Source: Methylohalobius crimeensis 10Ki (GTDB lineage Bacteria > Pseudomonadota > Gammaproteobacteria > Methylococcales > Methylothermaceae). Taken from it: a stretch of DNA of 64,000 nt. The position numbers and the translations under genes are program-made. The stretch is taken from NCBI RefSeq assembly GCF_000421465.1, contig NZ_ATXB01000001.1, forward strand, positions 992,001 through 1,056,000, written 5' to 3'. How positions within the stretch are numbered: position 1 is the first letter of the stretch; every line of letters begins with the position of its first letter. The notes beneath the pieces were generated by a model, which was not told where the DNA came from, did not search any database, and worked only from the letters and a program-made list of their open reading frames with translations. Positions 13,595-50,040 of this stretch are shown here, piece by piece.

Positions 13595-15118
13595 ATGCCA
13601 TATAACCTTATCGCAGCGATGAAAGCACCATCCATATTGCTCGTGGCGCCCGAGGGGGAGGAGCAAAGCCAAATCCAGTTTATTCTGGAGTATAGCGAAT
13701 ATTCGGTCCGCCTGGCGGAGCCGGCTGCTTTGGAGTCGGCGTTGATGGAAGGGGGGGATTATTACGCTGCCATCCTGATAAGCGGCGGGGGGTTGGCTCA
13801 AAGTGTGCGGGTATTGCGCCAAACTACGCCGGATGTTCCGCTCGTGATCATGCGAAAACGGAATGATGGGACCCCCTTGCCCTCGCCGGTGGAAAGCGAG
13901 ATTACTGCAACGCTGGATTGGCCGACCACCTATCCGCAATTGATGGCATTGATGCATCGGTTGCGAGGGCGCCGGGATAGAATCGATGGAAACGGGACCG
14001 CGCCGCGCAGCGGCCATCTTTCCACTCGGGAGGTAGCGGAAAAGCGGCGGCCATTGGAATTGTTTCGCAGTTTGAGCGGAACCAGTACCGCGATACAGCG
14101 GGCTTGGCGGTTGATCGAACAGGTTGCCGACACCGAAGTGACCGTGTTGATTCTGGGCGAGTCGGGGACCGGCAAGGAAGTGGTGGCGCGCAATTTACAT
14201 TATCATTCTTCTCGCCGCAGCAAGCCCTTCGTTCCGGTTAATTGCGGAGCCATTCCCGGGGAACTGTTGGAAAGCGAATTGTTCGGGCACGAAAAAGGCG
14301 CGTTCACCGGTGCCTTGAGCTCGCGTCAAGGACGCTTCGAAATGGCCGAAGGGGGAACCCTGTTCCTGGATGAAATCGGGGACATGCCCTTGGCGATGCA
14401 GGTCAAATTATTGCGGGTACTTCAGGAACGTTGCTTCGAGCGGGTCGGCAGCAGCCGGTCCGTGGACTGCGATGTGCGGGTCATCGCGGCGACGCATCGA
14501 AATCTGGAGGAAGAGATCGGGGCGGGGCGTTTCCGGGAGGATTTGTATTATCGCCTCAACGTGTTTCCCCTCGAAGTGCCGGCGCTGCGGGAACGCAGCG
14601 AAGACATCCCCTCGCTGGTGGCGGATCTGATCGCGCGAATCGAATATGAAAAACGCGGTTCCATTCGATTGACCGCCGCCGCTCTGGAAACGCTCAAACA
14701 CTATGATTGGCCCGGCAATGTCCGCGAGTTGGCCAATTTGATCGAGCGCTTGACGGTGCTTTATCCCTACGGCGTGGTGGATGTGGGAGATTTGCCGGAA
14801 AAGATCTTGCCTCGGATCGGCGGAGAGGCCGAGCCTACTGTGAGGGATTCCCCGCCCCCGAGTATCGCCGAGGATCAACCGGCGGAGGAGGGGAGTTCCG
14901 GGCGCCAAGCGGCGAGCATCGAAACCGGGACGTCCCAAATCCGCTTACCTGAGGAGGGGCTGGATTTGAAGGAACACTTGAGTGCGCTGGAGAAGGACTT
15001 GATCCGCCAAGCCCTGGAGGAGTCTCAAGGGGTGGTCGCCCATGCCGCTCAGCGCTTGAAGATGCGCCGCACCACCTTGGTGGAGAAGTTGCGCAAATAT
15101 AACTTGCGTGAAGAGTGA
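13595..15118 (+). CDS. fleQ: Sigma-54-dependent flagellar master regulator FleQ
   Basis: Enhancer-binding protein that activates flagellar genes with RpoN and, in Pseudomonas, responds to c-di-GMP. The N-terminal receiver-like domain has no evident phospho-acceptor Asp pocket, as in FleQ. The central AAA+ domain has Walker A GESGTGKE (about residues 188-195), the sigma-54-contact loop GAFTGA and Walker [12 protein letters not shown]. The Fis-type helix-turn-helix is at the C-terminus. Start choice is uncertain between the ATG at 13595 and a later ATG at 13619 ([11 protein letters not shown]); neither has a strong ribosome site. It heads the flagellar block and probably drives the sigma-54 promoters before fleS and fliE. 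Confidence 0.92.
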
Positions 15119-15287
15119 GAAAGAGGCGCGCCGGATCTGCCTGCCGGCTTGGCGGGTGTCAAATTTCCGACTTAGAACCACCCGGGCGTCACGAAACGAC
15201 GCCAATCGGTCCTTTCGTAGGGGAACGCGAACCGATCGTTCTTGGAGTCCCTGCCCTTAAGTTTTTGATGTAACTTATATTTATTTA

Positions 15288-15304
15288 TTGGCATCGTCCT
15301 TGCA
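15288..15304 (+). promoter_or_regulatory. Sigma-54 promoter of fleSR
   Basis: TTGGCATCGTCCTTGCA has the -24 GG and -12 GC doublets 10 bp apart, matching TGGCAC-N5-TTGC closely. It lies 45 bp upstream of the fleS GTG start and just after fleQ, so FleQ is the likely activator. Confidence 0.8.
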
Positions 15305-15348
15305 ATATTTACGTTCGGAAAGTGGACGAACGAATAAGCGAGTAGACG

Positions 15349-16626
15349 GTGATCGAACTTCGCAAATCGGCACGACAGGCAATCCGGATAGCCGACGGAA
15401 GCCACGGCAAGGAAACGGAATATAGAAAACTCCAAGACGCCTTCGAGTTATTCAATCAGCTTTCCCGGACCTTGACCGATTCGTATCGCGAACTGGAGGG
15501 CCAGGTTGCGCGGCTCAACCGGGAATTGGCCGCGGCCCGGAGCGAGCGCCTAAAAGCGCTGACCGAAAAGGAGAAGTTGGCCACCAAGCTGCAACGCTTG
15601 CTCGAGGTCTTGCCGGGCGGCGTGATCGTGCTCGATGGCCAAGGTCGTATCAACGAATCCAATCCCGCCGCGGTGCAATTGTTGGGAGCGCCTTTGGTGG
15701 GAGAGTTTTGGACGGACATCAGCGCCAGCCGTTTCGCCGAGGAAAGCGACAATCCTCACGAACGGCGCTTAACCAATGGCAGAACCGTCAGTATTTCTGC
15801 TTCCCAGCTTTTCGAGTCGGAAAGTTCTTTGGAAAGCGGCCGGGGTCAAATTTTGCTGCTCGCCGACGTGAGCGAAATGCGTACCCTGCAGGAATTGCTG
15901 GATCAACATAAGCGCCTCTCGGCCATGGGAGAAATGGTCGCGGAACTGGCCCATCAAGTGCGAACGCCCTTGGCGACGGCCATTCTCTATGCATCCCACC
16001 TGCAGGGCGATGAAGTGGATGAGGAGAGGCGCCGCCGTTTCGCCGGCAAGATTGTGGATCGCCTTCATCATCTGGAACGCCAGGTCAACGACATGCTGAT
16101 TTACTCTCGCAAGGGGCGCTTGGCCACCGAGAGCGTTTCGGTGGAGGATTTCCTGCAATGTCTTCGGCAAGCGGCCGAACCGCTTTTTGTTCCGACTTCG
16201 GTCGAGTTGGTGTTCAACAATCAGACTTTCGGCGGCGAGCGGTTTCGAGGGAACGCGGAGGTTTTGGAGGGGGGGATTCTTAACCTCCTCAACAATGCCT
16301 TCGAAGCCGTAAGCGAACGCGGCCGGGTAGAGATCCGCGCGCAGCGCGCGCGCGAATGGATTGTTCTGAGCGTGATCGATGACGGCGAGGGCATGGATGA
16401 GGCGGTTCGAGCGCGTATTTTCGAGCCTTTTTTTACCACCCGCGCCAGCGGGACGGGGTTGGGATTGGCGGTGGTCGACGGCATCGTTCGCGCGCTCGGA
16501 GGTTTTATGCGCTGCGATACTTCGCCCGGGGGCGGAGCGGCGTTCCACATCCACTTGCCGCCGGCGGAGGAAGATGCCCCTCTGCCGGGTGGGTATCACG
16601 ACGGTCGGGCCGGAAACAGGAGGTAA
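15349..16626 (+). CDS. fleS: Flagellar sensor histidine kinase FleS
   Basis: 425 residues, cytoplasmic, with no membrane segment. A coiled-coil region (about 40-85) leads into a PAS domain (about 85-185). Then come a HisKA domain with the phospho-acceptor His202 in AELAHQVRTPLATA and an HATPase_c domain with a GTGLGLAVVDGIV ATP lid. FleS phosphorylates FleR to turn on class III flagellar genes in Pseudomonas and Vibrio (FlrB). The start is GTG at 15349. fleR follows 3 bp after the stop, so they share a transcript from the sigma-54 promoter at 15288. Confidence 0.92.
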   Translation: MIELRKSARQAIRIADGSHGKETEYRKLQDAFELFNQLSRTLTDSYRELEGQVARLNRELAAARSERLKALTEKEKLATKLQRLLEVLPGGVIVLDGQGRINESNPAAVQLLGAPLVGEFWTDISASRFAEESDNPHERRLTNGRTVSISASQLFESESSLESGRGQILLLADVSEMRTLQELLDQHKRLSAMGEMVAELAHQVRTPLATAILYASHLQGDEVDEERRRRFAGKIVDRLHHLERQVNDMLIYSRKGRLATESVSVEDFLQCLRQAAEPLFVPTSVELVFNNQTFGGERFRGNAEVLEGGILNLLNNAFEAVSERGRVEIRAQRAREWIVLSVIDDGEGMDEAVRARIFEPFFTTRASGTGLGLAVVDGIVRALGGFMRCDTSPGGGAAFHIHLPPAEEDAPLPGGYHDGRAGNRR

Positions 16627-16629
16627 GCG

Positions 16630-18048
16630 ATGACGGGATCAGCTTCCGAACGGTTTGAATCGGATATCCTGGTGGTGGAGGACGACCGGACGCTGAGCGA
16701 AGCCTTGTGCGACACCCTGGGATTGGCCGGTTATCGGGTGCGATGCGCCGTGGACGGGGGCGATGCCTTGGCTCAATTGGACAAGTATCCGGTCAAGCTG
16801 GTGCTCAGCGACGTCAAGATGGCGCCCATGGACGGACGCACCCTGTTGCAGAATATTAGACGCCGCTGGCCGGAGTTGCCGGTCTTGTTGATGACCGCTT
16901 ATGGCACCATCGAGCAGGCGGTGCGTGTCATCCAAGCCGGCGCTTGCGACTATTTGGTCAAGCCGTTCTCGTCGGAAGTGCTGAAAAAGCAGGTCGAACG
17001 CTATATTTCCCTATCCACCCACTCCCATTGCGAGTCGACGGCCGCTCCGGCCATGCGGCGGATGTACGAGTTGGCCCGGCGGGTCGCGCCCACCGATGCG
17101 ACGGTGCTGATTTTGGGCGAATCCGGCACCGGCAAGGAGGTGCTCGCCCGTTATTTGCACCGGCATTCCTACCGGCAAGGGAGGCCGTTCGTCGCCATTA
17201 ACTGCGCGGCGATACCCGATCAGATGCTGGAAGCGGAGTTGTTCGGTTATGAGAAGGGAGCTTTCACCGGTGCTTACCAATCCACTCCCGGCAAGCTCGA
17301 AATGGCTCACGGCGGCACCATTCTCCTGGATGAAATCTCGGAGATGGTCCCCGCGCTTCAAGCCAAATTGTTGCGGGTGCTTCAAGAGCGTGAAGTGGAA
17401 AGGATCGGGGGGCGTCAAATCCTGAAGCTGGACGTCCGGGTGTTGGCGACCTCCAACCGTAACTTGCGCGACGAAGTCGCCGCGGGTCGATTTCGGGAAG
17501 ATTTATTTTATCGGATCAACGTATTTCCCCTGCAGATCCCCCCCCTGCGCGACCGCCGCCGGGATATCGTCCCCTTGGCGGAGGTGTTGTTGAAGCGGCA
17601 TGCCGACGGCAATCGCTTGCCGTCCTTGTCGGAGGAGGCGGTGAAGAAGCTGCAATCCTATCCCTGGCCTGGCAACGTGCGCGAGTTGGAGAATGTGATC
17701 CAACGCGCTTTGATTTTGACCGGTGACGACCGGATTCGGCCTTCGGACTTGATCTTCGACGAGCCGGATTGCGTGTCGGCCGAGGATTCCCGGACTATCC
17801 TTGATCAAAACGACACCTGTGTAGAGGGGATAAAACCCATGCTCTCCGAGGCCGGCGGTCGCGGTGGAAACGGAGCGACTAAATTGGAGGAGAGCGTGCG
17901 CTGCGCCGAGGAGCGAATTATTTTGACCACGCTGAGGGAAGAAAACGGTAGCCGCAGCTCCACCGCCAAGCGCTTGGGCATCAGTCCCCGAACCCTGCGT
18001 TACAAGATCGCCAAAATGCGCGAAGCCGGCGTTTCGGTGCCGGGTTGA
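16630..18048 (+). CDS. fleR: Sigma-54-dependent flagellar response regulator FleR
   Basis: 472 residues. The N-terminal receiver domain has the acidic pocket VVEDD and phospho-acceptor Asp61 (VLSDVKMAPMDG). The AAA+ domain carries GESGTGKE and the sigma-54 interaction loop GAFTGA. The C-terminal Fis-type helix-turn-helix (SSTAKRLGISPRTLRYKI) is clear. With FleS it should activate basal-body and hook genes such as fliE downstream. Length and domain order fit FleR/FlrC. Confidence 0.93.
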   Translation: MTGSASERFESDILVVEDDRTLSEALCDTLGLAGYRVRCAVDGGDALAQLDKYPVKLVLSDVKMAPMDGRTLLQNIRRRWPELPVLLMTAYGTIEQAVRVIQAGACDYLVKPFSSEVLKKQVERYISLSTHSHCESTAAPAMRRMYELARRVAPTDATVLILGESGTGKEVLARYLHRHSYRQGRPFVAINCAAIPDQMLEAELFGYEKGAFTGAYQSTPGKLEMAHGGTILLDEISEMVPALQAKLLRVLQEREVERIGGRQILKLDVRVLATSNRNLRDEVAAGRFREDLFYRINVFPLQIPPLRDRRRDIVPLAEVLLKRHADGNRLPSLSEEAVKKLQSYPWPGNVRELENVIQRALILTGDDRIRPSDLIFDEPDCVSAEDSRTILDQNDTCVEGIKPMLSEAGGRGGNGATKLEESVRCAEERIILTTLREENGSRSSTAKRLGISPRTLRYKIAKMREAGVSVPG

Positions 18049-49613: not shown

Positions 49614-49650
49614 TTTGTCAGCATTTTTGACAAAAATTGTCGTTGACAAA
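49614..49650 (+). promoter_or_regulatory. Tandem palindromic enhancer-like sites
   Basis: TTTGTCA-N7-TGACAAA at 49614-49634 and TTGTC-GTT-GACAA at 49637-49649. Half-sites TGTCA/TGACA occur four times in 35 bp. They lie about 60-90 bp upstream of a sigma-54 promoter, the usual place for enhancer-binding-protein sites. The same TGTCA-N7-TGACA layout recurs at 50016-50032. Confidence 0.65.
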
Positions 49651-49705
49651 CAACTACTACAACGTGATCGGTTTATCTCTTTGATTTAAGAGAATTTCCT
49701 GTGCC

Positions 49706-49721
49706 TGGCACAGGGAATGCA
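49706..49721 (+). promoter_or_regulatory. Sigma-54 promoter of the 59-residue gene
   Basis: TGGCACAGGGAATGCA has the full TGGCAC -24 box and a -12 GC exactly 10 bp after the GG. RNA would start near 49732, leaving a leader of about 34 nt before the ATG at 49766. It overlaps an 8-bp inverted repeat CCTGTGCC/GGCACAGG (49699-49715). Confidence 0.8.
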
Positions 49722-49765
49722 GAGATAAGCCCAAAGTCCGCTATTTTTGAGAGGAGGACCCAATC

Positions 49766-49945
49766 ATGAATCGTCGCATTCAGACTCTGATCCGCTCTTT
49801 TCAAGGTTATGCCTACGAAGTGGCCGGTATGATCACCGCTTATTTCGACGATCCGGATCAAGCGCGCGCTTGCGCCGATCGGATCTCCGCCGAGTGGCGC
49901 AAACCGGTGGAAGTTTCAGGCACCAGTCTGATCGTGGTTTTGTGA
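49766..49945 (+). CDS. Unrecognised 59-residue protein, sigma-54 controlled
   Basis: MNRRIQTLIRSFQGYAYEVA begins a 59-residue frame. A strong ribosome site (GAGGAGG, 49751-49757) lies 8 nt upstream of the ATG. The protein has a basic N-terminus, a central acidic segment (FDDPDQARACADRI) with a single Cys, and a C-terminal hydrophobic beta-strand (GTSLIVVL). No signal peptide or membrane helix is evident. The promoter, palindromes and ribosome site argue that it is real although it is short and flanked by non-coding DNA. I do not recognise it. Confidence 0.72.
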   Translation: MNRRIQTLIRSFQGYAYEVAGMITAYFDDPDQARACADRISAEWRKPVEVSGTSLIVVL

Positions 49946-49976
49946 AGCAGCTGTTTTTCCGCCGCAAAACGGAACA

Positions 49977-50040
49977 GGCGACACTGAGCATATCGCGCCG
50001 TGTCGCCTTCCCAACTGTCAATTTTTTTGACACGCCAGTT
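49977..50040. promoter_or_regulatory. Hairpin and third TGTCA-N7-TGACA site after the 59-residue gene
   Basis: GGCGACAC (49977-49984) pairs with GTGTCGCC (50000-50007). Then TGTCA (50016-50020), seven A/T bases and TGACA (50028-50032) repeat the architecture of the upstream site, inside a wider AACTG/CAGTT inverted repeat (50013-50017 and 50036-50040). The first hairpin could end the small transcript; the second may be another regulator site. Confidence 0.55.

Follow-up and report, generated by a model that had tools for sequence, protein, structure and literature searches.

A conserved 59-residue protein gene of Methylohalobius crimeensis with a predicted place in the PrsK/PrsR-sigma-54 (PEP-CTERM-box) regulon

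The closest described counterpart of the locus reported here is the promoter class found at proteobacterial genes for PEP-CTERM proteins. As the available text of Haft et al. (2006, PMC1569441) describes them, these promoters carry a 17-nt motif, termed motif 1, with the 3' end TTTACA, followed after a spacer of 32-92 nt (mean 62.8) by a sigma-54 element with GG at -24 and GC at -12. The same text reports that motif 1 is sometimes repeated and that the architecture co-occurs with three proteins, PrsK, PrsR and PrsT. One PEP-CTERM gene, pepA, has been shown to be RpoN1-dependent in Aquincola, where control by PrsR is probable (PMC9850573). Another sigma-54 regulon that invites comparison is that of GlrR (QseF), for which the consensus site TGTCN10GACA has been described (PMC8745638).

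The window, a 64,000-nt stretch of the M. crimeensis 10Ki genome, contains a 59-codon open reading frame, hereafter P59, that a sequence-only reading had described as an orphan gene under a sigma-54 promoter, attended by three palindromes and served by an activator that it left unnamed. Direct reading of the window places every element of that description where it had been put (Table 1).

Table 1. Features at and around the P59 gene, in window coordinates
Feature	Position	Strand	Remark
Activator box TGTCAGCATTTTTGACA, PrsR-type (PEP-CTERM motif 1)	49616-49632	+	TGTCA-N7-TGACA
Second palindrome TTGTCGTTGACAA	49637-49649	.	TTGTC-GTT-GACAA; not conserved
Sigma-54 -24/-12 element TGGCACAGGGAATGCA	49706-49721	+	One mismatch to consensus; conserved in orthologs
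Ribosome-binding site GAGGAGG	49751-49757	+	Direct sequence reading
P59 gene	49766-49945	+	59-codon ORF; predicted alpha-beta-beta-alpha-beta-beta cytosolic miniprotein
Downstream PrsR-type box TGTCAATTTTTTTGACA	50016-50032	+	No linked promoter; score 25.4

Judged by its conservation, P59 is a real gene under purifying selection. All nine further genomes of the genus (Methylohalobius/Methylothermaceae) contain one syntenic ortholog apiece. It sits beside a divergent nucleotidyltransferase-like gene common to these loci, and most of the genomes also share a dehydrogenase gene farther downstream. Ahead of the start codon the orthologs carry GGAG(G) or something close to it. Relative to the nearest relative, G001, P59 has accumulated 24 silent and 6 non-silent codon changes (dN 0.057, dS 1.45), giving a dN/dS of about 0.04. 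With orthologs in all nine relatives and so low a ratio, the small gene proposed from the letters of the window holds up well; the label of orphan does not, since P59 has a family that consists of these orthologs together with homologs in Methylococcaceae. The latter occur in 1-6 copies per genome in many Methylococcaceae-like genera (family f4) and are mostly also about 59 residues in length. A profile scan of contigs with the genus alignment yielded six relatives. Matches are present in 27 of 201 Methylococcales genomes, and beyond this order they are weak at best among 369 gammaproteobacterial genomes. A search with P59 against the Pfam and NCBIfam models returned no match, and no general conserved neighbor was found for the Methylococcaceae homologs. 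By these comparisons P59 appears to represent a new small-protein family, whose gene would sit, in this genus, within a known sigma-54 regulon. A second homolog in the same genome (L019, G000:C2:298814-298984, minus strand) continues into a 158-aa frame and is without the box-promoter arrangement.

Taken by itself, a -24/-12 match carries little weight, as such elements occur at chance level in the window (17 with two or fewer mismatches, compared to 16.4 expected). The element before P59 is nonetheless credible because it is conserved and lies at a fixed distance from the box upstream. In the upstream alignment, GG-N10-GC is found in 10/10 P59 orthologs of the genus and also in the aligned homolog from G033, and the spacer between box and element measures 73 bp here, within the published range of 32-92 nt, and 72-73 bp in the orthologs with an intact box. 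The element and its constant spacing support the earlier proposal that P59 has a sigma-54 promoter served by an activator box, and the conservation on which that proposal had staked itself is indeed found in the related genomes, for the frame (9/9 others) as well as for the promoter (10/10).

A scoring matrix trained on the promoter-linked boxes of other genes in the genus gives the upstream box 25.4, within the training range (minimum 24.6); in the window this box has the top rank and the downstream box the next. The window has two exact copies of TGTCA-N7-TGACA, and both flank P59. Pattern searches across the genome (3.5 Mb), a check suggested at the outset, returned 15 sites of the form TGTMA-N7-TKACA and one for the reversed control. 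The upstream box keeps its position in the orthologs, TGTCA-N7-TGACA being followed by AAAAAT in most aligned rows, and the flank TGACAAAAAT accompanies it in most of the ten upstream regions aligned. Less favorably to control by PrsR, the box extends to 18 nt in G003 and G009 and is degenerate in G004 and G007, with the promoter retained in all four. Among the Methylococcaceae homologs examined, a recognisable box is kept only in the genus of G033 and G066, so a link to PrsR does not hold throughout the P59 family.

Within the genus, the composite of a box, 60-90 intervening nucleotides and GG-N10-GC occurs 2-7 times per genome and strand, compared to 0-1 times in the reversed control. Where the -24/-12 element is a good one, nearly all spacers fall at 62-64 or 72-75 bp, two classes that differ by one turn of the helix, and the 72-73 bp seen at P59 is also found before PEP-CTERM genes of the genus. 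Most of the genes behind such promoters encode PEP-CTERM or other secreted or membrane proteins, several of which exceed the TIGR02595 cut-off. The genes prsK, prsR and prsT are clustered in this genome. PrsR scores 664 bits with TIGR02915 (cut-off 502.6), PrsK 408 bits with TIGR02916 on a partial piece (cut-off 300) and PrsT 273 bits with TIGR02917 on a truncated piece, below the cut-off of 312. PrsR was found in nine of the ten genus genomes and was not found in the fragmented assembly of G006. A Fisher test of P59 with PrsR across 201 Methylococcales genomes (21/27 versus 75/174, p = 0.0008) takes no account of phylogeny, and we rest no conclusion on it. Separately, in two genomes (L188, G000:C1:1697755; L214, G007:C64) a PrsR-type box and a -24/-12 element stand before a gene whose product, 227-234 aa in length, apparently has a single membrane helix; it would be a non-PEP-CTERM member of the putative regulon, and the G000 protein at L188 gave no NCBIfam match.

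Because box, spacing and co-regulated PEP-CTERM genes agree, PrsK/PrsR can be named as the candidate regulator, and the comparison suggests that the P59 locus very probably belongs to the PrsK/PrsR-sigma-54 (PEP-CTERM-box) regulon. The activator box of the sequence-only reading thus stands, and the activator behind it acquires a specific candidate. With the described system the locus shares a 17-nt box, a spacer in the same range, the -24/-12 element, a single-gene unit and a genome that carries prsK-prsR-prsT. By matrix score the upstream box conforms to motif 1, insofar as that motif is known from the available published description rather than from its logo. The P59 boxes differ from it in ending TTGACA instead of TTTACA; within the genus, most PEP-CTERM boxes end TTACA and those of P59 TGACA. 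Unlike the usual targets of the system, P59 is soluble, has 59 residues and is devoid of a signal peptide or PEP-CTERM tail, and unlike the system as described, an extra box follows the gene in four of the ten genomes.

The overall explanation that we favor, with a probability of about 0.7, is that P59 is a monocistronic gene under PrsK/PrsR and sigma-54 whose product is made with the PEP-CTERM envelope proteins and may serve as a cytosolic adaptor or regulator. PrsK, a membrane kinase, would phosphorylate PrsR, which would then bind the upstream TGTCA-N7-TGACA box and, through DNA looping, activate the sigma-54 polymerase presumed to be poised 73 bp downstream, on the -24/-12 element. The transcript would begin near 49732, and the soluble 59-residue protein would be produced together with the PEP-CTERM envelope proteins. 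From that perspective, what looked like an orphan small ORF is a conserved gene for which a candidate regulator can be named, and the PEP-CTERM-box regulon would include, besides sorted surface proteins, a miniprotein of the cytosol. The regulatory link also provides a first hint of a role for P59, in the exopolysaccharide-linked surface (PEP-CTERM) programme. As it is short, single-gene and strongly conserved, and has a consensus that spans the genus, the P59 promoter makes a convenient test case for direct control by PrsR, of which our literature search found no demonstration for any gene.

The consensus TGTC-N10-GACA had made GlrR the first candidate, and its binding to the box would assign P59 to an envelope-stress regulon instead of the PEP-CTERM regulon. 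Like glmY of the GlrR/QseF regulon, P59 is a very small gene with inverted TGTC and GACA half-sites upstream of a sigma-54 promoter, a full-length GlrR ortholog (56-59% identity) is present in eight of the ten genus genomes, including this one, and the boxes of G003 and G009 have exactly N10. The spacing at P59 in this genome is N9, however, eight of the ten orthologs are without N10, and the P59 target is a protein gene. Such sites are also nearly absent around glrR itself (one among eight genus loci, L139), whereas the spacing and core of the P59 box match those of PEP-CTERM promoters. GlrR was dropped because searches did not find it in G001 and G005, two relatives that keep both box and promoter, and its chances of being the activator now appear very slim. 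It is similarly improbable that the box is used by some other conserved sigma-54 activator. Five of these, PrsR included, are common to G000 (this genome), G001, G005 and G009, so that candidates do exist in L119 (PilR-like, as we take it by eye), L126 (presumably NtrX-like, again by eye), L123 and L125. Nothing ties these four to PEP-CTERM promoters, however, and the identical box and spacing stand before PEP-CTERM genes, which published work predicts to be targets of PrsR. Two other sigma-54 activators, L115 and L122, lie close together at about 14000-17800 of the window (G000:C1:1006075 and 1009044) and presumably, from inspection by eye, resemble FleQ- and FleR/FlrC-type flagellar regulators. 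If PrsR is the activator, the box at 50016 might be a second PrsR enhancer that acts from the 3' side of P59. It has a full score and is one of the 15 genomic sites, which vindicates the suspicion that the repeated N7 spacing is unlikely to be chance; a box also lies downstream of P59 in G001 (+4), G002 (+157) and G006 (+218), and repetition of motif 1 is on record for known promoters in the available text of PMC1569441. Against this, the six other relatives (G003-G005 and G007-G009) are without an intergenic downstream box. The apparent matches there coincide with V-K/R-K-V-Y codons, read by eye, on the pcm coding strand and are explained by them. The 50016 box could equally be the relic of a lost neighboring promoter, and the enhancer role is best regarded as doubtful. 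A second promoter starting from this box, as once envisaged, was rejected, with no -24/-12 element 60-90 bp away on either strand, as was a terminator, the box offering just a weak 6-bp stem. The pcm coding sequence (L096, L102 and relatives) mimics the activator box by coincidence and is a trap for motif counts.

What P59 does may be approached through its structure. The AlphaFold model built from a 35-row alignment (pLDDT 93.8), for which a single-sequence model was discarded, has the order helix-strand-strand-helix-strand-strand. Inspection of the sequence, which ends in ...VEVSGTSLIVVL, revealed no signal peptide, no transmembrane stretch and no PEP-CTERM tail with its PEP motif, transmembrane segment and basic cluster. 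As no export or sorting signal is present, P59 is most likely cytosolic. Structure searches returned HAD caps, the PulL C-terminal domain, ribosome recycling factor and the ArgR C-terminal domain, which share a common small arrangement. We tentatively infer, while placing the odds against it, that P59 may be a small protein-protein adaptor or regulator in the cytosol, perhaps with a catalytically dead core of the nucleotidyl-cyclase type, that serves the exopolysaccharide/envelope programme and exopolysaccharide/envelope assembly in methanotrophs. P59 may also be the small regulator or stress peptide that the sequence-only reading proposed. A competing and likewise unlikely view sees P59 as a pared-down, non-catalytic relative of the class III/GGDEF nucleotidyl cyclase core that binds a second-messenger enzyme or receptor. 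Outside the P59 family, the only class-level matches of its profile among 369 gammaproteobacterial genomes are two proteins that we take from their sequences to be class III cyclases and one that we take to be a GGDEF protein (E 7.5e-5 to 2.5e-4 per genome). Three of eight PDB sequence matches are cyclases (E 0.09-0.6), Foldseek aligns 5d0h_B at 26% identity and rmsd 1.6, and a P59 homolog precedes a gene for a CHASE2-type adenylate cyclase by about 1.2 kb at L108 (G063) and L112 (G054). In its predicted structure P59 follows the helix-strand-strand-helix-strand succession of the cyclase core, which it also matches weakly by profile, in a single register. Yet P59, with 59 residues and none of the catalytic ones, is without the first strand and its metal-binding Asp, and the Gly-Asp turn reads Gly-Met. 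An hhalign comparison with five cyclases gave a probability of 1.2%, which is not significant; the HAD caps, PulL-C, RRF and ArgR-C are better fold matches, the two top PDB sequence matches are unrelated designed miniproteins, P59 is without a Pfam match, and this genome and G009 are without a PF00211 cyclase. Quite improbable is the broader notion that the family is a non-catalytic mini cyclase core under PrsR-sigma-54 through which methanotrophs link second-messenger signalling with their PEP-CTERM/exopolysaccharide programme, its gene having PrsR boxes on both sides in some species.

Of the three palindromes noted around the gene at the outset, the upstream box stands by its conservation and the downstream box by its full score. 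The middle one fares differently, showing no conservation in G001 or the other orthologs in the upstream alignment, which suggests that it is probably incidental. A perfect inverted repeat, CCTGTGCC/GGCACAGG, at 49698-49714 overlaps the -24 element and is not kept in the nearest relative. Right after the stop and before the downstream box, at 49975-50010, the sequence could fold into a hairpin, GGCGACAC...GTGTCGCC, which has no immediate T run and is a possible terminator.
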